Source: Polytrichum commune (Eukaryota > Streptophyta > Polytrichopsida > Polytrichales > Polytrichaceae). From it: a stretch of DNA of 64,000 nt. This document shows positions 5,241 to 63,917 of this stretch, piece after piece. The translations under genes and the position numbers were made by a program. The stretch is taken from assembly GCA_950295325.1 (NCBI GenBank), contig OX485804.1, positions 49,898,429-49,962,428 of the forward strand, given 5' to 3'. How positions within the stretch are numbered: the stretch's first letter is position 1; the number at the start of each line of letters is the position of its first letter. A model generated the notes under the pieces. That model was given only the letters and a program-made list of their open reading frames with translations. It was not told the DNA's origin and did not search any database.

Positions 5241-5631
5241 GGGGCGTTTACACACAACTACCTTGTGTGGTTGTGGTTGTGATTCAGACCCACTTTAACC
5301 ACAACTAGACATTTTTTCATATACACACAAGGTGTAGTTGTAGTTGAAGAGTAAATTTGACCCAAATTATCATTCCTGATCCTATCGATGCATTCCGTGG
5401 AGCAAAGAAAACCAAATTATGGATTCTAGTGGAGTGTTTTGTCTAAGAGGACATGCCACAATGAAACCTCCCCCATGCTTTGGCCTTGAAGTTCTCTCCC
5501 CGTATCACAAAGTACCTACAAACAAAATAGCACCAAAGAAAGTAAACTAAAACCATCCCAACCACTCCCAACACCTTGTATTGTAGTAGGCACTTTAAGA
5601 GTAGTTATGGTGTGGTTGTCATAAATGCACC
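5241..5631. mobile_element. Probable MITE with imperfect terminal inverted repeats
   Basis: The left end GGGGCGTTTACACACAAC matches the reverse complement of the right end (GGTGCATTTATGACAAC) with a few differences. The interior is rich in GTGTGGTTGTGG and its complement. No coding capacity. I could not define a clean target-site duplication, so the superfamily is open. Confidence 0.5.
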
Positions 5632-5894
5632 TTATTTCTCAAAAACGGAGCCAAAGAAAGTAAAGTGCAACCACCAAACGCCTCTCAAGTCTACTTGTTC
5701 AGGCATGTAGCTATTAAGATAACTAACCTGCTTGGCATGAGAGTCATTTCCCCTACTCGCTACAAACAACTATCCACATGTAGGTTCAAGTTCAGCTACA
5801 AATAGTGCTTCCTCCCTGTGGTAAATCAGACGTTTAGATAAACCAGCGACCGATAGGTGATTGTTTCATTCTCCACTTCGAAAGCCCCATCTTA

Positions 5895-24527: not shown

Positions 24528-27500
24528 CTAGAGTATCTGTTGAAGCCATGGGTTGGCTGCTCCATCTTTGTCAAGTTCACTCTTCATGACTTTAAGTTGG
24601 GCTAGTGATTCGTCACGACTCAGTTGGTCAACAGGTAGTGCTGCCAGATCTTGAAGAAATTTTCGTATGCGTGCTGCTCCTTGGATGTGGTCATCTGAGC
24701 CATCTTCTCTCTTGCGCTTTCCTGTAATCTGCTGATAATAAAAGAAAAACGAGATTGTGTCATTCAACTGCATTGTATCTGCCATCCACCAGTTCAATTA
24801 TAAGTGATTCCATTATTTGGATAGAACACACTGCTGGAACTCCCAGCAGGATCAACACACATAGTGCACTATAAGTTTGTGGGGAAACTCACTTTCAAAG
24901 CAGTGGCCCTTGTGATATATTAATTCCAATAGAATCTATACACACCAAAAAAATTGCCACTACCTGTTCCTTTGTACCATCTGCCGCCACGTCGAGTGTT
25001 GTGGGCGAGAAATCTTCTAACTCTGCTGCTTTTTCTCTTGCAAGCTCAACAACGCTTTCTGGAAAGTGAGCAAACTCTGCAACATGGATGCCAAAACTTT
25101 GGTCGCACGGACCTTCTTCAACCTGCATGAATGATCCTTGATGAGAAAATGGTTTGAGAGACCTTCTGAGAAGTGACAAGATCATGATAGTCAAGGCATG
25201 AAGTCCTTTCTTTGTTTGATGGATAGTTTCACCAATAGATATGAGATCTAGTATCTGGACAGGTTGATATTGAAACCACTAAACATCGGTAATTCACAAA
25301 GATGGTACTCACCTTGTAGAGCATGGCAAGTTTCCGAGATTTGGTGTCAATATGAGCACTGACATGATAGTTGGCAATGCCTACAGGAGGACCCCTTGGG
25401 GGTCCATGCACAGGTGGCGCTGTGGAGCTTGATAGGGCAGTGAGTTCATGAAAGTGAGTTGCAAAAAGTGTGGGTGCCCGTGTTACCTCCACTAAATACT
25501 CACAAATTGCCCACGCCAACCCTGTACACCATCCACTTGTTGTGACCATGGCATTCCAATGCAGAGAAACAATTGGGAGAAAAATTGACCTAGGACATTC
25601 ACTTACTTAAAGTACTTGAAAATATTAAGTTTCATACAAGGAAGTTGTCTTTTATTTAAAATAAGGAGGCACCTATGAGCACATCCATCCCAACATTCCC
25701 ATTGTACATGTACAGAAAATCTTTTGAGGACAAATGATGCACTCACCAAATCCATCATAAGTCGAAGTGCCCCGGCCAAGTTCATCAATGATGATCAAGG
25801 AACGATCTGTGGCAGACTTCAAGATAGCTGCAGTTTCCAGCATCTCAGCCATGAATGTTGAGACTCCTCGTAGCTGCAAAACACATGTACCCACAGAAAG
25901 TAAGAAAAAAATGGGTGAAATAGGTAATGGCATATGTTGGATAGCCTTGAGAACAATCAAGACTTTATCATTCAACTACATTCTACTTGCCAGCCTACAT
26001 TCACCACTACTACCTATACTGGTCAGAAACTGAGCAGGATTTGGAGTTGGTGGAAAACTGCATCACTTCATTATTTGGAGATGAATGTACCTGGCAATCT
26101 CCAGCACCAACCCGGGCAAAGATGCAGTCCCGCACACTGATCTCAGCATGGTCGCATGGTACAAAGCATCCGACTTGAGCCATCAACACATTCACACCCA
26201 CCTGTTCATTTGTGGTAAGAACTTTGTGTGTAGAAGAACACATATCCTAATAAGTATCTTGTAGACATAACTTAAAGATTACAGTAACCAGGGTATGAAA
26301 AGATATATGGTAGACATCACCATTCCAGATGGTGGCAACTCATCCGACCACTGGCTATTTAAAAGATTAGACCAAGTTATAAATATTTCACTCCCATTGA
26401 ATCATTATGACAATTGATTCATCAAACACATACTCTGAAGGACATGTAAGCAGATGATCAAACTGGAAGGACGAGGGTACCTGACGAATGAAAGTAGACT
26501 TTCCGCCCATATTAGGACCTGTGATGATCTGGAACCAGCTCTTGCCTCGGACCTGAAAATATTTGCAAGTTTACAGAAGTTACCTGACCTGATGCCTACA
26601 AGTGTGAGCATACCACTTGACATATCTGTGGCAGACATTTAAAACACATAGTTGTTTCTAGTGTGCTACAATCTACTTTCCTGCAGAGAGTAGCTTGAGT
26701 TGCTAGCTCTCATTTTAGTGATGGAAATATTATTTCAAAGTAGTAGAGAATATGCGGTGTGTATTTTGAGCGATTTTCTTTGCGCATTTTCAAGTAGTAG
26801 AGATAAACACACTATGAGGTTCTGCAGTTTGCAATACCAGGCGACAATCATTTGAAATGAAGTTGACGTCATCCTGAGCTTCAACACATGGGTGGCGACT
26901 GCCTTCCAGAACAATATCACCTTCATCCTGTAACAAACACCACAAGACGTGAAATTGGGTAAGCTTGCTGCCTTCTTGCTAAGAATTCAAAATCGCTCTC
27001 CAGATTGGTCTCCAGATATTTTGTAGGTTACCAAGACACAGTGAAAGACTCAACCAAGTTACAACAGATACTTTCAACCATATAGAAAAGCATTACAACA
27101 AAACACAGTGCACTGAGACCTTTGGATGGCTTTGCAGGGTTCTTAAGAAACTGAGAAAAGAGGATCCCTCCACAAATACCAGCGTAAAGAGGAAAGAACT
27201 TACTGAAGGAGTGATAGAAGGTCTAACATAAGGTGTTGGACTGGTACTAGAAAGATCAGCAAAACTCAGTAAGACATCCATGTCTGCCAGAAGTATTGCG
27301 AGTCCTGTGAACACCTGCAGGGGTAGGACAGGAACAATTATTAAGTTTACACCTCACAAGTGTCAAGAGAAAGTTGCTACACTTAAACAGCATCAATTAA
27401 AAATGACAATTAGCTGAGGTCTTGCCCGGAAAAACAAACACACTACTAGAATTTTTTTGTGGATGGAAGGATTGCATACCTCAGCAAATGTTGATGCAAC

Positions 27501-30500
27501 ATCCACAACCTTGGCAACAAGTTCCCTCTGTGTACTTGTATATTCTTCAGTCAGCTTAGTATACTGTTCACTCAACCTTCGAAGCTTTGCATTTGTGAAT
27601 TTTATGCCATCTTTCCTGGTCTCGAGGTTCATATACTGTGTTGTCAACTTTTTTCTAACCTTTGGTTCTTCTTTTTTGGTAATTCGAAATACATGCCCAT
27701 ACTGCGTATTCTTCTCCAACTTCAAGGCCTTGTCAGCAGGTAGTCCGAGGTCATCTGCTGCCTGTTGATGTATTTTGGCTATTTGCTTCTCTACACTATC
27801 ACGCTCAGTTTTGATCTCCTGAAGACTGTTGTCATAGTCTGCAGCAATTATGTACTCCCCATTTTGGAGTTGCTCAAGATCTACTGCAGCCTCTACTAAA
27901 CCATCAAACTTTCCTAAGTGGTCAGGTTGTGTCCATTCTTCAATATGGTTGCCATACTTCTCCTTCAAGAGCTCAGAGAATTCCCCTTCATATCGCAATA
28001 GGCAGGTTTTAATCAACGGAAGCCTCAAGCTAGCCTGTTCGCAAATGTGAAAAAAGAGTCAGTGAAACCTCTAAAAAGATACAAGCAAGTAATGTACTGA
28101 TTGAAGAGGACCCATGCTGGCTACAGGTTCTTAAAGATCTTGCACTCCAGCCATTGCTCCAGCAGGACTTATTTTGTGGTATTGAATAAATTTCTTGTAG
28201 TCTCAAGAATTTTCTTCCAGTGTCAGTCTTCATAATATTATACATAATCCTCAAATGTGTAGCTAGTTGATGCTTAGGCTCATCACAATTGCAGAACATC
28301 ATTTTAATTGCAGCAAAAAGGGCTACAAGGGGTTTGTAAAGTATGAGATGTTACTCAGCACAAGGATGCTTTCTTGCAGTAAATTATCTCAAGAGACCTG
28401 CCAGCATACTTCTTGGGGATAGATATATTAAGTGCGTGTCTGTACCTGATACAACTTCACAACATCTTGCAGACCAGCCTTGCGCTTCTCAAGTCTGCTC
28501 ACTAGCCGCTCTATGTCAGGCATCCGACGCAGATGTGAACGAAGATCCTGTCGGAGTTCAAGTCCCTCCACAAAAGCTTGCACAGTGTCCAACCTCTTTG
28601 TGATCTCTTGTACATCCAGAAGGGGTTGTTTCAACCATCGATTTAGCAACCTTTTGCCCATACCTTGTGTACATGTTCGGTTCATTAGACCAAATAGACT
28701 AAAGTTTTTATTTGCATCTGTCTTGCTTTCAGTGACATTAAGAGCTCGTAAAGCTGCTGCATCCAGGCGCATGTAAAGGTCAAGGCTATATGGCTGAATG
28801 ATGTACTTTCCATAATTTGTGTCATCAGAGAGAAGCTCTGTGTATGTGAGGAGTGCAGCTAGAGCAGCAGCTGCAACCTCAGAAGTTGCCACTAGTTCTT
28901 TGTGTTGCTCAGCTGGACCTTTCACTAAGCGACCTAGATCTTGTTCAACATCACGAGACCTGCACATAACAAATACCTTTTCATGAATCTCAAGAATCCA
29001 GTCTCCATTTATGACGCAGACAAAGCAAGTTACATAAGTTGGTACAACAAGTCTCACATCCAGAACTAAATGCCATATTTATACCTAAAATCGGTCTTCT
29101 TCTTCTCTGTGAGCAAGACATTACAGCGGGCCATCACATCACGGAGTTTTCGATCATCTGGAGACTTGGCAACTGTTGATTGTGGTATGACACATTCACG
29201 ACAGCCCAGGGCAACCATGGCAGATTCCAAGCTTGTAAATTGGTCATCGTCCAAGAACTCCGTCATTCCAAGCTGCCTCTTTGTCATATCCACAAAGGCC
29301 AACCCAACACAGCGCTCATTTTCACGAAGAACCACATGAACAGCCATCACCACAGGAGTATCCTGTGGCACACACAAAACATCATCAGTCAAGCCACCAA
29401 ACGCTGAGGGGTTCTCACATTCAAGTTTTAGAAACTCATGAAAGAGAAGGGCTGATGGAAAATTCAATCATGGTTATTTAAAAGAAGACTTGACTTAAAT
29501 GCCTCTTAAATTGAACATACATTTTCCCTTTCTGCAACAACTTAGCAGCCTTAAACCCTGAACCCTAAACTCCAAATACTAGGAGCCAATACCTGCATCT
29601 CATTGCTTGCAAATAGGACATCTTCAAAGCTACCAAGCTTGCCTGGAGTTCCACTCTTCACTAGCTGCCACTTTGATCCACTGCCCTCGTACAGCTCAAC
29701 TATGCAATCTGTTCTTTCCAGCAGTAAGTCACGCACAATGGTCTCAAACATGGTTCTGCTAATGGACACTCCAGACAGACTGTCAGAACCACTACCCAGT
29801 TGCCGCAGTGCTGTGAGGGTCTTGTAGTACGTCTTTGCAATAAATGTAGCATTGTCACCATGAGCAGTGTAATAATCCTGTGAAAGAGGAAGAGTTAATC
29901 AATGACGAGATGTGCAAGGCTCTGGGAAGAGATGAAAGCACTGAAGGTCTTAAAAGCCCAGTTCAAGGGAAACGAACACACACATTGTAATTAGAATGAA
30001 ATTTGCAAAACTCATTATATGTTGTACAAGCCATACTCCACAAAGATCTAGAGTCAATTATGGTCAGTGAGCCTAAAAAGCACACAAATTTATGGCAAGC
30101 AATAACAAATATGGACTTACTTTTCGGTCAAAGAAGCGTATGACTTGTTCAGTCTGCGATGTATCAGCCACAGAAACATAGAAAGTCACCTTGTTAATAA
30201 ACTTGTTAGAAAAATTTGCATTCGTCACATCTTGTGTGTTAGAATCACCTCATGATATTCAAATTCTATCTGCTTCCCTGGCTACTGGTGTAAATCTATC
30301 AGCACATCTATCACATTCCACCGTTGTCATCAGTTGAACGTACATTTAGACCCTGGCATAATTGAGGAGATTTATCCTACAGTGATACCTAAACAGCAGT
30401 ATGTGGACACAGACATATAGGTAGTTGGACAATTCTCCGAGCTGGTTACAAGTCGTTGCGTTAAGAATGTATACAGTTCGTGAATGACCAAGTTCAGCAC

Positions 30501-36222: not shown

Positions 36223-36420
36223 AAAAACCGAGTCTATGCAAGGAACTTGAAACTTCAAATGACGATGCTGGAAACAAGAGTGATCGAAATCGAAAGCTAT
36301 AAAAACAAAAATTGTAGATTATAAAGTTCTACACACTCCTGTAATGATAAAATCATGATTTCAATTACAACAAAGTAGATAAAGATGTTGAAGAAAAGTA
36401 TGTACATAGACTCGGTTTTT
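36223..36420. repeat. Inverted repeat pair flanking about 165 bp
   Basis: AAAAACCGAGTCTATG at 36223-36238 is exactly inverted at 36405-36420 (CATAGACTCGGTTTTT). The right copy continues GCACTACAGTG, recalling CAGTG ends of Tc1/mariner elements. It overlaps the 3' side of the adjacent transposase remnant, so it may be that element's terminal region or a small derivative. Confidence 0.6.
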
Positions 36421-37006
36421 GCACTACAGTGTAGAAGACACTTAAAAATTTGTTCATCGCCCTTTTGCAACTAAAACTACTCAATGGTTGCTTCCCAAAC
36501 CATTCTTGAACAATCTTGGTTGTATATTGTGCAATATATGACCCCAATCCTCTACAAGTCCAACAACCCCAAAGCATTATAGAGCCTCCACCATGCTTCA
36601 CAGTTTGGTTCACAGCACACACATGGATGTTTTCTTTGTCCTCTATCCAACACCAAGTCCTCCCATCTGAATTGAAACAACATATTTTAGTTTCATCACT
36701 AAACACCACCCGCTCCCGATCACTCACAGTCCAATCTTTGTACATTTGAGCAAAGCGAAATCTATCTTTGATGTTCTTCCAACTCAAAGCAAGCTTCTTA
36801 ACCTTCGTAAAAGAATACAATTCTTGTTCTCTCAACGCATTCCTCACGGTATTGTCGCACATCTTTACACCCATCTTTCTTCGAAGCATTTTTGATGCCT
36901 CTGTTGCAATTTCTAAACCGCCAATAGTAACTAGCTGTGAAGTATAACACCTCTCCCACTCTGTTAGGACCTTAGGACGACCTCCTTTAGAATTGTTGTT
37001 CAGCAT
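36365..37006 (-). pseudogene. Tc1/mariner-type transposase remnant
   Basis: A 213-residue open frame. The N-terminal part has the linker and helix-turn-helix signature GGRPKVLTEWER followed by MLRRKMGV...TVRNALRE. The catalytic core shows VVFSDETKICCF (first Asp), DGRTWCW and VKHGGGSIMLWGCW, as in Tc1-like transposases. Just after this it jumps to YTTKIVQEWF, a segment that in the family follows the second catalytic Asp (QDNAPxHT), so an internal deletion has removed that Asp. The final Glu region (SPDLNPIE) is absent too. Upstream the frame continues with one stop (at about 37044) before the IANGIEKNTQWPLARM segment. Non-functional. The VKHGGGS spacing fits DD34E Tc1 elements rather than the DD39D mariners usual in flowering plants. 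Confidence 0.85.
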
Positions 37007-38575
37007 CCTGGCTAACGGCCATTGAGTGTTTTTCTCTATACCATTTGCAATTCATGGCCAGATTCTTGCCTCCAGATCGCATGCCTGAAATTCAGGGTGT
37101 GAGCGAAGAATGCTGACATCCTGCTCTACTCCTCCTTAAGAAAACCTACATTGGGTTTCATAGTGTTCCTTAACACTAATGCCAAGCCATTGTGGGCAGC
37201 TCAGCACCATATCACTTGCCTAATTCTTTGCCAACCCCAGGTCTCTTAAAGCGCTAACCCTCAAAGAAGTTGCTGTTGAGCAGCGCATTCATTGCAGGCA
37301 GCAAACTTTAATTTTGTGATTGAAAATTTCACAAAAGTTCTTTGAGATAGATCGAGAACTTGAATTGGACAAATGATTGAGGAATTTGTGTACGAGCCTA
37401 ATGTCCTGGAGGTATGGTGTGGTTTGTCGAACCAGGGCTCTTTATGACGTCCTAGAGGACGGCAGAATTGTCACTGCCGCTGCACATGCGATTCGACTGC
37501 AGAGGAAACTGCGGTCAAACTAATCCTTTTTGCAGGGCCTCAGGAGCAGAGGAAAGGAGGAAGGTAGATTCAGTCTGTTGAGAGGCGCCACATCTTAGAC
37601 CGCAAAAAAGGAGAATTCACTCCTCGTTTCTTCAGCCTAGCCGAAGAACTTCAGTGCAATCGAACTATAAATGCCAATGCATCATGAATATAACTGTGAA
37701 TTGAACAGAGTTGGGTGGATGCCATTTAACAATCATGTGTGAGGTATTTTCCTGCAAACTCCCCACCACTGCTGTATACATAAACCAGGGATACTTCTAC
37801 CAGAACATTCCAGAACTCTCTCACAAACTTGTGGAAAACGGCATTTATAAGGCCATAGATTTTTCAAAGAACTAAAGGGTGCATTCAAATTGACCATGTT
37901 TCGATGTCCAGTTAGTAGCTGGCCGGGAAGTCTTGTGATGCCCATCAGGGGAACTCAACAGGAGAGTATGAACGCCTAGCTTCCACAGATGACACCTTCA
38001 AGCCTTCCAGTGTTTGACACACTCCTAGTTTGTACAATGCGATGTGCTGAAGTACATCACAAATTTAGTTTGAAGGAATCCATGACAAGAATCCACTGCT
38101 GTGAAACTGATTCACGCTACAGTTCATGTGTCTGGAGCTTGCCATTTGCACCAGTGGGAGCAATGCCCTTATTAGGATTTGGTGGGGGAGGCCTGCCGTC
38201 ATCCTTCACATTTGAGTACGCCGAGTCTCCCGATCCATCCACAGGAGGTAACCTCCCGTTCTCAGGTGCTTGCACGGGTGTGGATACTGTCCCTGCAGAT
38301 TAATGCCACTAATGAAAAATCACTTGCATATTCATCATGGACAATTTCTAATTCTTGGTGCAAATCTAATCATCTGTTGCTAGCCTTTCAGTCCCCTTTC
38401 ATTGTTGAAGCTAACTTACTGAAATAGAGTTTCCACTCTTATGTTTCCATAGACTGGCATTCGAAGCACTTCACGTGGTTCGAAATCTTATGAGTTCTTC
38501 GCACGATCATACTACCCAAGGCTTATTGTGACTGGCATCAAAGAATGGCTCATTGTGTAATTCCAAATATAAGTG

Positions 38576-58762: not shown

Positions 58763-61700
58763 ATGCTGTTGACCAAGAAAACCAAACGGTCCTTCTTTAC
58801 ATACATTTTGGTCTGCACAGGAGTGTTTGGAGTATGCATTTTGGCCGAATCCATCTTCGTGTTCGAGGATGGATTCGGCCGGGCGAATCTGCAAGGCTTT
58901 GCCTCGACAGTGTCCAATACAAGGTTCAGTGAGACCTATGAAATATTCAATCAGCGTTACTTTACAGGTGCTGTTCTTCGTCTTTTAATTACTGTATAAT
59001 GCTCCCTGCGCTCGGGGACTATACTGTTATGCATTACGCCTCCTGCCTGCAATACTTTGCCACCTTATTGATGCTCGTGATTGGATTGCATATTTTGGAG
59101 ATGCAGGATCGATATGTGCAATTCTACACTATTCATTCTCTTTAGAAGCATCGGTAAGTTTAGAGAACTTTGGCTACGAGGATTCATTCACCTCAGTAAA
59201 GAGTGTGGTCACTTGAATGCAGGATTTCGGCGCATGTTTGGCCCCAGATCTCAGCTTAGTAGTGCAAACATATTTGGTCACTTAGAATCGGAGAACGTCG
59301 CGGCAGCTGCACCAGAGCAACTGCAGTCTAACGTAACTGTTATGACGACTGCCGCTGCATTAGAGCAACTGCAGTCCAACGTAACTGTTATGACGACTGC
59401 CGCTGCATTAGAGCAACTGCAGTCCAACGTAGCTATTACGATCATTGCCGCTGCACAAGAGCAGCTGCAGTCCAACGTAACTGTTATGATCACTGCCGCT
59501 GCACCTGTTGAACAAAACTTGACAATTCCTATCAAGGAAGATGGAGTTTGCGTAGAATCTGCTCACGATTCCGAGAGGATAGGTAACTCGTTATTTGTTA
59601 AGAAATCGTGCGTCAAGAATGAGCTTCTCAGCTCTATGCCGGGGGGCATCTTTCTACCGTTAAAAGATGCAAGTCTTAAAGGTCTGACCGACACGGACAC
59701 CAACTGGTTCATGAGCGGGCTTCGAGGAAAGCAGGTCGCTGGCGAAGCCGAATCCTTCGACCTCCCTTGCGACGATCCCGATGGTCGAATTCTGTGCGTC
59801 CAGGGAAACGATATACGAGATGGAACCAGAAACAGCTACGGTTTCTTCCACGTGGCTGCGTTGCCTCCGAACTCTACTTTCTTGAATGGCACTACTTTTG
59901 TGAACGACAATTACTGGGTTTACGAAAACTTGTGGCACGGAATGAACTCCGTGGTGAACATTGCCTTGTGGCGCAAACGGAACGAATGCACGAAACCCGA
60001 CCGCATGCTGCTGTACCATTGGGGCGAGTTGCGCAACTCGTCAACCGACTGGCTCTCCAATTTGCTGCATGCTACCATGGGCACGGAGATGGCGGTCCTG
60101 GAGCCTCCACCCAAGTCCACTGTCCAAGGTAACAGCTCTTCTTTCTAAGAACAGCTCCTCATTACTCCCTTCTAATTCATCTAGTTTTTGATTTTCTGTG
60201 TGAAGACTTGCAACGTCTGTAGGAACATGAGGGCATTGAGAGGACTCCAATGACATCATAAGTGTCTAAATCATAGAAAAATTGGACACTTATAACCCCT
60301 GCAGGAGTTGCCACCTCAGAGTCTAATGCAATTTGCTTTGAACGAGCCGTCGTCCACCGCCGAGGTTTGGTTGGAATGGATGCGAAGGTGAAGCGGGAGC
60401 TTTTCGACATGGTGCGTTGCAAAGTGCGCAAGTACTGCCGCATCTCTGTCAAGGATGAAGTCCATAGAGATCGTTTAGCGAACAACAGCAACAACACTCT
60501 GCCCGCGGTGCGTGTGACGTTGCTGACAAGGAAGGGTGACAGGGCGTTTCAAAATGCAACAGCGGTTGCGGCAGTTGTGCAGAGGGAGTGCGCCATGGTC
60601 GGTGCCTGCCTCTTGAAGGTCGTGAGTATCAACGGTCTCAGCTTCTGCGAACAGGTAAGAGCTTACAGTGCTAATCTTGAAGTTCCCTAGTTGGTTTTTC
60701 ATTCTACACCTTGCTTACCGTAAGTTTTCGAAACCTGCGCCGCCATTTCTTCAGCTTTAAGGCATACTCTTACAAGTTTCTTCATCTGATCGTTGTTTGC
60801 ATATGCTTCCGAGCCTGACCGTTTAGTCTGATACACTCCTCGGCCAATTCTGACCAGCGACACTAACGTGAAGGATTCATTAGGCAATTCAGACCGCTAA
60901 TAAAATGTAGTATTCTTTGTGTTTTCAGCTAATGAATTCCACCATCTCTCATGTCGAATTGCATATTCGAACTATTGTGTGTCTCCAATGAGAGCAAGGG
61001 GCAGTGATGGGCATGGGGATAAGGCTAGGACAATTGAGGTCATGCGCCTCATTCTTTACACACGAGTGACAATTGAACTTTAACTGAAGGACTCACTGGA
61101 CAATCAAGGTTGGAATTGTGATATTTTTAATATTAACCAGTGCACTACTAAAATCTGACTTAGTGTGGCATTAAAATTAGTGGGCCATGTTAATTGATTT
61201 TCTGAACTAGTCATGTAGCTGTAAATGACATATGATACCCTCCTAATTTCCACCCACTAATAATTGCAAGATAATCAATTTGGGTTCATGATGAATAGTG
61301 TGGATCACATTTAATCAAATTTTTAGTGCAATAACTTGTATATCTTCTCTTGGTTATTTCATTGTCTTTTGCATGTCTTTGTTTTCTCCTTGGAAACATA
61401 GTCAAAATCTTGAAGAATTATGAAATTTGAATGAACAAGCAATTAGTTGCAAGATTGGCTTGCCCTATTACTATCTTGCACATGTGGTTAATTTTGGTCG
61501 GTTGTCTAATCAAGACCAAACTTTGGCTCATTTTAGAGACCATGTTACATTAACCCTCACTTAACTTGCAATTGAACTCCACTTGAAGAGAGAGTTACTA
61601 ACACCATAGAATCACAATACATATGTGATCAGTGAAGGTTGACTACCAAACTTTCACCCATTTTAGAGTCCATCCCTAGGTCTCTTCCATCAAGGCAAGA

Positions 61701-63917
61701 CCAATAAAATTTATGAGGGTATAAGAAGACCCAAGTAATGCATATAAAGGTAGGAAGGGAGAGAGAGGAGATAATTACAAAAAAGGAGAAGAGGAAGGAA
61801 GGATGGGAGGGAAGCCTGCATTTAATTTGTTTTTGTTAGATTACATGTAGCCATCTTTCCATTGATTTGGTACCTCTACGGAGTTTTCTTTCCCTAAACA
61901 TTGATGGGATATTGTTAAGGGGGTCCACTCATGGAAGAAAAGTTAAAACAAAAGTGCAGGTGATCGACTGAGATAATTGAACCAATACTATATGTCTCAA
62001 GACTGCAGCATTGTTCTCAGCAGCATCGGTTCATCGTGCTAGATTTATGAAATTTGTAAAACCGCATTAGTACCGTAACTTCAAATAATGTGCAAGAAGC
62101 AGAGATATATCTCACAGCGCCTGCACGCAATGATATCACAGTGGTCGCACGCAATTTTAGAGAGAAGTCGATCGTCAGAGTAATCTCATGACAGGTTGAA
62201 ATCTTTTGGTGGCGCAGGCGGCAGTCATGAGCGGCACCGATGTCCTTATTTCTGTACACGGGGCGGCAATGACCAACATGATCTTCATGACGCCGGGATC
62301 AAGGGTGATGGAGTTGCTTCCGAAAGGGTGGCTGAAGTATGCAGGATTGGGCCAGCAAGTCTTCGAATGGCTTTCGTCATGGCTGGGTCTCTTCCACGAG
62401 GGAAATTGGGAAGACGCCGAGGGCCCTCCGTGTCCCTTCCCAGACATTAAAGGCGACAGAAGATGTTGGAAATTCTTCAAGAACAGAGAGGTGGGGTTGA
62501 ACGCCACCCATCTCGGAGAGTGGACGCGCAATGTTTTGAGGAAATTTGTGCAGGACACTGAAGACCGGAAGAAGCAAAATGGGCGAGATGCCGGATCTGA
62601 TGAAAATCAAAAGTGTGCCTGTGATGCAGACAACGTGGTTTACAAAGACGTAAACCCAAATGAAAGAATAATCGCCTCTGACTTGGATTCAACCAATTTT
62701 ATGAAAGACGATGCCGGGCTTCCGTTGAGTAATGTATCCGCCGTTGAGAAGAATGTGAAGAACGATCTTCTCAGGTACATGCCAGGGGGTATATTTAAAC
62801 CGTTGAAGGATCCTCGCTTCCCAGGGCTGTCCGACACGGATATCAATTGGTTCATGAGTGGGCTACGAGGCCGGAAGGAGAGAGGCGGCCACCCGGAGGC
62901 TTTCGACCTACCCCGCGACGACCCAAGTGATCGAATTCTGTGCTTGCGGGGGAGGAGCATGGGAGACGGGACGAAGAACAGTTATGGCCTCTTTCATCCA
63001 TCTGCATTGCCTCCATACGCCACTCTCCTCAATGGCACCACATGGGTGAACGAAAATTACTGGGACTACAATAACCTGTGGCACGGCATGGGCGCCGTGG
63101 TGAACATTGGCATGTGGCACACGAGGAACGAGTGCATCAAACCTGATCGCATGGTGCTGTATCACCAGGGCGAGCTCCGGAACTCTTCTACGAAATGGCT
63201 CTTCAGCCTGTTGCACGCAATAGTGGGTTCTGAGATGGCTCTTCTCGAGCCGCCGTCCAATGAGTCCGGCCCCCGGGGTGAGAACTCTTCTTTCTAGGGT
63301 AGCTCCCTTCTAATGCACCTAAGAATTCATGATTTTTTATTACGTAAAGACTTGCAACATGTATACTAAAGACGATGTTGGGAGGAATCCAATGACACCA
63401 TTAGCGTCTAAAATTTGTGGACTTCCAAAAGTTCTGAAATTTTTATGCAGAACCCCTAGTTCTCCAGAAATTCTTCAAGAATATATTACAAGACAGTTTT
63501 AACGATATCCTATATTAAGAGTGTTTATCTTGAATCCCAGCTCTGAATTGACTTGTTAGGACGGTGACGCCTGCTTATTGTATAGGAGTTGCTACCCCGG
63601 GCCCCGTGTGTTTCGAGCGCGCCATCGTCCACCGGCGTGGATTACAAGGGATGAGCTCCGAGGTGAAGCGGGAGCTCTTTGATACTCTACGGTGTAGAGT
63701 GCGCAAATACTGTGGCATCGATCCAGATAGCAACATCAGCGGCGTGGAGAAAACTCGAACGTCGCCGGCAGTTCGTCTGGCGCTGTTGACTAGGAATGGT
63801 GATCGGGCGTTCCGAAATACATCGGCAGTTGCAGAAGTCGTGCAGGGGGAGTGCGATAAGGTCGATGGCTGCCACTTGGAGGTCGTCAACTTCGATGGTT
63901 TCAGCTTCTGCGAACAG
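58763..63917 (+). CDS. Tandem two-domain GT61 glycosyltransferase (3' end beyond window)
   Basis: A Golgi-type glycosyltransferase of family GT61, which in plants includes xylan arabinosyl- and N-glycan xylosyltransferases; the acceptor here is unknown. Exons 58763-58967, 59223-60128, 60305-60654, 62218-63277 and 63586-63917 are phase-consistent and give 951 codons before the last visible donor. A short basic tail and one membrane helix (residues about 11-30) indicate a type II protein. Domain 1: MPGGIF (about 207), DTDTNWFMSGLRG, YENLWHGM, LLYHWGELRNS, ICFERAVVHRRGL, RVTLLTRKGDRAF, and the GT61 motif VHGAAMTN (about 501-508). The same exon then restarts: MPGGIF (about 675), DTDINWFMSGLRG, YNNLWHGM, LYHQGELRNS, and the next exon CFERAIVHRRGL, LALLTRNGDRAF. 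Domain 2 should finish beyond 64000. Introns recur in the same phase after the PP-rich segment (phase 1) and after SFCEQ (phase 0). A possible 47-bp exon at 59107-59153 would break phase and is excluded. Confidence 0.88.
59303..59510 (+). repeat. 48-bp in-frame repeat with N-glycosylation sequons
   Basis: Four units start at about 59315, 59363, 59411 and 59459, encoding EQLQSNVTVMTTAAAL with small changes. Units 1, 2 and 4 keep the N-V-T sequon; unit 3 has N-V-A. It lies between the membrane helix and domain 1 of the GT61 protein, so in the luminal stem. Confidence 0.92.
60655..62217. other. Large intron inside GT61 domain 1
   Basis: 1563 bp with consensus GTAAGA and GCGCAG ends. It separates the ...SFCEQ exon from the HGAAMTN exon. 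It contains GTGTGG/ATTAGTGGGCC words near 61160-61200 like those in the 39.6-kb MITE, and a GA-rich run near 61760-61810. Minus-strand frames at 60699-60887 are not convincing. Confidence 0.7.

Follow-up and report, generated by a model that had tools for sequence, protein, structure and literature searches.

A locus in Polytrichum commune raises the question of whether two GT61 glycosyltransferase domains are carried there by a single protein or by two neighboring genes. Enzymes of the GT61 family, described as single-headed, attach decorating sugars to plant xylans and glycoproteins; the plant members include xylan arabinosyl- and xylosyltransferases and the N-glycan beta-1,2-xylosyltransferase. 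The locus lies at the end of a 64,000-nucleotide stretch of DNA (assembly GCA_950295325.1, contig OX485804.1; G000:C2:49898429-49962428 in our numbering), hereafter the window, in which an original prediction had recognized two GT61 domains fused in one gene. Having analyzed the window and searched the genome (408 Mb, 64 contigs), we consider it likely that both GT61 domains belong to a single gene and that its product is one type II protein of the Golgi type, 1,084 residues long. The gene would derive from the tandem duplication of a whole gene followed by in-frame fusion.

One reading frame through two GT61 domains

Spliced together, six exons form one frame of 1,084 codons that opens with an ATG at 58763, closes with a TAA at 65321 and is free of internal stops. 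The five exons in the window (58763-58967 + 59223-60128 + 60305-60654 + 62218-63277 + 63586-63917) splice into 951 stop-free codons, with exon-end phases of 1, 1, 0, 1 and 0. The original prediction had proposed extending the sequence past 64000, and doing so revealed a sixth exon (64920-65321) that supplies the missing part of the second GT61 copy and ends in the TAA, 1.3 kb beyond the window end on the same contig; the extension agrees with the window base for base over a 429-base overlap. All four introns complete within the window have GT..AG borders, as does the fifth (63918-64919), making five of five. The features of the gene are as follows.

58763..58967, plus strand: exon 1, with the start codon and the predicted type II signal anchor (hydropathy peak at residues 15-33)
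59223..60128, plus strand: exon 2, luminal stem and first part of GT61 domain 1 (KNELL at 59615; N304 at 59927; H307)
59306..59504, plus strand: 48-bp minisatellite, 4.1 copies, 89% matching, coding for a Thr/Asn-containing stem repeat
60129..60304, plus strand: intron 2, phase 1, homologous to the intron at 63278-63585
60305..60654, plus strand: exon 3, middle of GT61 domain 1 (R446/R450)
62218..62631, plus strand: exon 4, first part, end of GT61 domain 1 (HGAAMTN at 62257; tail ending in CACDAD)
62632..62757, plus strand: exon 4, linker, 42 open codons starting where domain 2 has its stop
62758..63277, plus strand: exon 4, last part, start of GT61 domain 2 (KNDLLRYMPGGIF; N773 at 63073, H776)
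63278..63585, plus strand: intron 4, phase 1, homolog of intron 2
63586..63917, plus strand: exon 5, middle of GT61 domain 2 (R910/R914)
64920-65321 in extended numbering (G000:C2:49963348-49963749), plus strand: exon 6, from HGAQMTN to the TAA stop

The protein would thus be ordered as N-terminal anchor, repeat-containing stem, GT61 domain 1, a linker of ~42 residues and GT61 domain 2. By simple hydropathy, as opposed to a trained predictor, it has a single N-terminal anchor: the best 19-residue value (2.34) is found at residue 15, the peak at residues 15-33 is preceded by Lys and Arg residues, and the maximum past residue 45 is 1.68. With this type II topology, two competent GT61 heads would sit in the lumen of the secretory pathway. 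The stem minisatellite carries N-V-T sites in three of its copies (residues 105, 121 and 153).

Two complete GT61 domains are contained in the 1,084-codon frame. The Pfam GT61 hidden Markov model (PF04577), the search that the original prediction had suggested as a check, matches the 951-residue protein in two stretches with an expectation value (E) of 1.9e-18 (67.5 bits, with a cut-off of 27). Domain 1 alone scores 57 bits, and in the genome search the last exons of domains 1 and 2 are both above the cut-off, with 32.7 and 29.4 bits. The motif MPGGIF occurs at residues 207 and 675 and NWFMSGLRG at 229 and 697, both pairs being exactly 468 residues apart, the spacing given approximately in the original prediction. 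The parts of the two domains within the window are 62% identical (181/291 aligned positions; BLASTP 2e-133), and the complete domains 66% identical over 415 codons.

An alignment of five family rows, two of them being domains 1 and 2 themselves, was used for comparison with solved structures. Each of its five rows matches PF04577 at E up to 0.1, and its profile finds nine distinct solved sequences when matches up to E 1 are admitted. POMGNT2 accounts for seven of them (best 1.3e-6) and EOGT for one (3.3e-5); the ninth, an iron-transport receptor (E 0.64), we took as a chance match. In the available text of PMC13123520, the GT61 N-R-R triad binds uridine diphosphate, also in plant members, and a His three residues after the Asn is the proposed catalytic residue in POMGNT2. 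Residues fitting this triad and His occur in both domains (N304/H307/R446/R450 and N773/H776/R910/R914), and the four positions are invariant in all five rows. The R-R pair was aligned to POMGNT2 by HMMER, and the N-x-x-H was assigned from spacing and invariance, not from structure.

Domains 1 and 2 are under purifying selection. Between them, the ratio of nonsynonymous to synonymous substitution rates (dN/dS) is 0.19 over 415 codons, with a dS of 1.22, a value that is already imprecise given the simple Nei-Gojobori count behind it. Of the 107 sites identical in three single-domain paralogs (L008, L009 and L042, the last incomplete), 102 are retained in domain 1 and 101 in domain 2. The five and six deviations at these otherwise fixed sites, among them a Gln at residue 804 of domain 2 (YHQGEL) in place of the Trp found in domain 1 and in the four paralogs compared (YHWGEL), could be expected if a single GT61 domain of the fused protein were catalytic and the other had become a structural or acceptor-binding partner. 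We consider such a division of roles improbable, because the N, R, R and His positions are kept in both domains and the interdomain dN/dS is low. Neither domain looks like a dead copy, and both are probably active transferases on a common anchor.

The join between the two copies

The exon at 62218-63277 is a single open frame of 353 codons. As the original prediction had described, it holds the HGAAMTN of domain 1 (residue 501) and then the MPGGIF of the second domain (residue 675), here 174 residues on against an estimate of about 175, and the next exon (63586-63917) continues domain 2. Domain 2 ends in CACGAD followed by a stop. At the same place domain 1 reads CACDAD and the frame runs on, which suggests that this exon is a former last exon joined to a former catalytic exon with no anchor exon between them. 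The site matching the domain 2 stop and the start of domain 2 homology are 126 bases apart, a gap too short to accommodate a promoter together with an anchor exon and an intron, and tblastn found no second anchor exon within the window. The missing stop of the first copy and missing signal anchor of the second, which the original prediction had put forward, are borne out at the sequence level. The closest paralog, L008, ends 25 codons past its CACGTD.

In coding score, the linker frame reaches 0.105 per codon, compared with -0.246 and -0.343 in the other frames. Several observations nevertheless weigh against a linker translated within one protein. Its guanine-plus-cytosine content is 0.42, as in nearby non-coding DNA, with flanks at 0.53 and 0.56. 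Within window 1-58700, 12% of plus-strand positions begin a run of 45 open codons (the figure for the third intron of the gene is 1.3%); of 28,229 open stretches drawn at random, 11.8% look as coding as the linker or more so; and 28 of the 45 possible GT-AG pairs (>=60 nt, 62540-62775) would disrupt the fused frame if spliced. Neither the domain 2 tail nor that of L008 is significantly similar to the linker DNA, and the linker end has weak similarity to the domain 1 stem (11/500 mononucleotide shuffles as good). In addition, the single protein is read here from genomic sequence, a point that also bears on the two-gene and pseudogene explanations discussed below, and the assembly was judged from the contig sequence. 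By itself, the linker is weak coding evidence. The case for one protein is carried mainly by the absent in-frame stop, the lack of space for a second anchor exon and the six intact exons.

Two origins for the linker were tried and rejected. As a retained C-terminal tail, it had in its favor a resemblance by eye between the tails of domain 1 and L008, but the local DNA alignments are no better than shuffles: 228/500 shuffles were as good for the domain 1 linker against the DNA after the domain 2 stop, 417/500 for the linker against L008 and 261/500 for domain 2 against L008. As a retained stem, its end was matched to the L008 stem (379/500 shuffles as good) and the whole linker to the region upstream of domain 1 (355/500). 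Since these alignments are near shuffle level, we make no claim as to the exact joining base. Exon 4 alone gave a sole match among solved structures, to a chlorophyll-binding protein at E 0.43, and its structure prediction, with a mean predicted local distance difference test score of 31.7, was not used.

The locus might instead hold two tandem genes and yield two single-domain proteins through a fresh start of transcription or translation between the domains. A weakly coding-like linker with an in-frame ATG (FMKDD) would suit that arrangement, and the other GT61 genes found in the genome appear to be single-domain. However, domain 1 has no in-frame stop ahead of domain 2, the units are only 126 bases apart, and domain 2 would be left without a signal anchor and stem. 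On this evidence we think it unlikely that there are two genes. An assembly artefact, in which two distinct GT61 genes had been wrongly joined, could in principle be present in a contig judged as assembled, but the join lies within an exon and in the correct frame on a 70-Mb contig, and the 1,060-base exon has six genome matches, of which only that at its own place is end to end; collapsed alleles are also unlikely because the domains are only ~70 to 80% alike at the DNA level, and an artefact is highly improbable. A fused but decaying pseudogene, to which the tail of domain 2, shorter than that of L008, might point, is scarcely credible either, given 1,084 codons without an internal stop and an interdomain dN/dS of 0.19 at a dS of about 1.2.

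Paralogs, a common intron and the proposed origin of the fusion

At least 11 GT61 loci are present in the genome: nine others from 11 PF04577 matches (two of which are this gene), L008 and this gene. The count is a lower bound because PF04577 alone missed L008. Two PF04577 matches close together occur at this locus only, a statement limited by the fact that no separate search was made for a second weak domain beside the six loci outside the subfamily. The original prediction had allowed for more copies past the window. None was found in the window (best other match E 1.3), and the 18.2 kb from 65331 to 83571 contain only a 20-residue match at E 0.31. Pattern searches for relatives in bacterial and archaeal contigs (82 matches) and in viral contigs (72 matches) left 0 confirmed, and a near-identity plasmid search gave no match.

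L008 (G000:C2, 14.27 Mb) is the closest paralog found. Its gene model, built by hand, encodes 603 residues with an anchor exon, a stem, one GT61 domain and a stop. It shares with the double gene the type II anchor exon, the stem and a phase-0 intron before the HG-motif exon, and its identity is 64% with domain 1 and 66% with domain 2. It differs in having a single domain with its own stop, a longer tail than that of domain 2 and an extra stem intron, and in lacking the intron described below. L009 and L041 (G000:C3, 3.697 Mb and 5.205 Mb), on opposite strands and ~1.5 Mb apart, are 93.9% identical over 3,975 aligned bases, and their frames are those of single-domain genes with anchor-like first exons. 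In L041, a stretch of ~440 bases (5348-5791) that separates two matching blocks has no match. L042 is a more distant paralog, represented in the tree by a long and incomplete row.

The original prediction had noted that the intron phases match in the two copies, and for one pair the likeness goes further. Introns 2 (60129-60304) and 4 (63278-63585) have the same place and phase, and their sequences align locally with a score of 72, where the maximum in 100 shuffles was 27; they are homologous, beyond a match in phase. The long introns at 60655-62217 and 63918-64919 have no detectable common sequence (score 21, shuffle mean 23.5). At the place of introns 2 and 4, L008, L009 and L041 have continuous frames, that of L008 being a coding stretch with the insert QEGSQNQTVRNSSAS. 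The intron start reads on as NSSSF or ENSSF, by eye like that insert, and this may hint at the origin of the intron.

Protein trees do not decide whether the sister of domain 2 is domain 1 or L008. In the six-row tree, domain 2 groups with L008 at a support of 89/90 (84 under a simpler model), yet holding domains 1 and 2 together is not rejected (approximately unbiased test, p-AU 0.138). Leaving out L042 lowers that support to 61/67 and raises the p-AU of domains 1 and 2 together to 0.395, and the grouping of domain 1 with L008 has p-AU values of 0.048 and 0.084. Separate trees of the two lobes leave domain 1, domain 2 and L008 unresolved. The common intron favors domains 1 and 2 together, or else intron loss in L008.

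With the sister of domain 2 undecided, the trees do not separate internal duplication from the fusion of tandem whole genes. The internal tandem duplication of the original prediction stands as regards two domains in one frame; its unit was probably a whole gene, later fused, such as the complete single-domain gene L008. We favor this route because L008 and, judged by their frames, L009 and L041 carry one GT61 domain each behind an anchor-like first exon. On this view, tandem duplication of an entire single-domain GT61 gene would have come first, and the copies would then have been joined in frame, with loss of the stop and 3' end of copy 1 and of the promoter and anchor exon of copy 2. As a result of those losses, what had been the last exon of the first copy and the catalytic exon of the second would now form one exon.

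Elsewhere in the window, on the minus strand, three frames of a MutS-type mismatch repair gene (27393-29464) match MutS domains II, III and IV, and a frame at 36365-37048 resembles a Tc3-type transposase (PF01498, E 2.1e-9). No tRNA or RNA-family match turned up when the window was scanned. The genome has 58 matches to chlorophyll-binding proteins, as suits a photosynthetic eukaryote; at G000:C5:1751760-1846160, a span of about 95 kb, 14 chlorophyll a/b-binding matches with equal scores are clustered.

Known transferases and the possible role of a double-headed GT61 protein

The available text of PMC6297846 describes plant GT61 proteins as having an N-terminal putative transmembrane domain and one conserved C-terminal DUF563 region. 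Compared by such descriptions, they share with the double protein the N-terminal anchor, the C-terminal family region and the N-R-R triad, and differ in having one catalytic region rather than two. POMGNT2 and EOGT, animal GT61 enzymes with solved structures, match the family profile at E < 0.001 over roughly the stretch from R-R to HGA, whereas each has one catalytic domain in place of two in one chain. EOGT adopts a GT-B fold in the part of PMC13123520 at hand. The same extract has Dictyostelium PgtB with a GT61-like domain beside GT1-, GT2- and GT4-like domains and with F-R-R replacing N-R-R; it is thus a multi-transferase protein like ours, but not one with GT61 beside GT61. From the accessible portion of PMC13411425, POMGNT2 forms a rigid dimer whose composite acceptor site lies between the two protomers, and LARGE1 and K4CP each combine two different activities in one chain, alternating in polymer building. 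As described there, LARGE1 and K4CP resemble the double protein in having two transferase domains per chain and differ in that their activities are unlike, while both heads here are duplicates within one family.

Among the titles and abstract starts of the literature matches listed, no GT61-GT61 protein is described; plant protein databases were outside this search, and other examples may exist. The phrase 'two GT61 domains' does not occur in 20 of the listed papers, nor do 'tandem GT61', 'duplicated GT61 domain' or 'GT61-GT61' in another list of 22, and 'two GT61' in the available text of PMC10534680 refers to two genes, not two domains.

Given the POMGNT2 dimer and the two-headed LARGE1 and K4CP, a tethered pair could couple two transfers or serve as a built-in dimer. 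Tentatively, the heads may have diverged in acceptor or position (e.g. the W-to-Q change at YHWGEL), so as to carry out a linked pair of transfers on a single glycoprotein or wall polysaccharide or to form within one chain a composite acceptor site as in the POMGNT2 dimer.

A natural tandem fusion in which both active sites apparently survive provides a means to test whether GT61 enzymes act as pairs and whether two side-chain additions can be coupled. Its hybrid exon illustrates a possible route from tandem genes to a double-headed Golgi enzyme, with a single-domain relative still there to compare.

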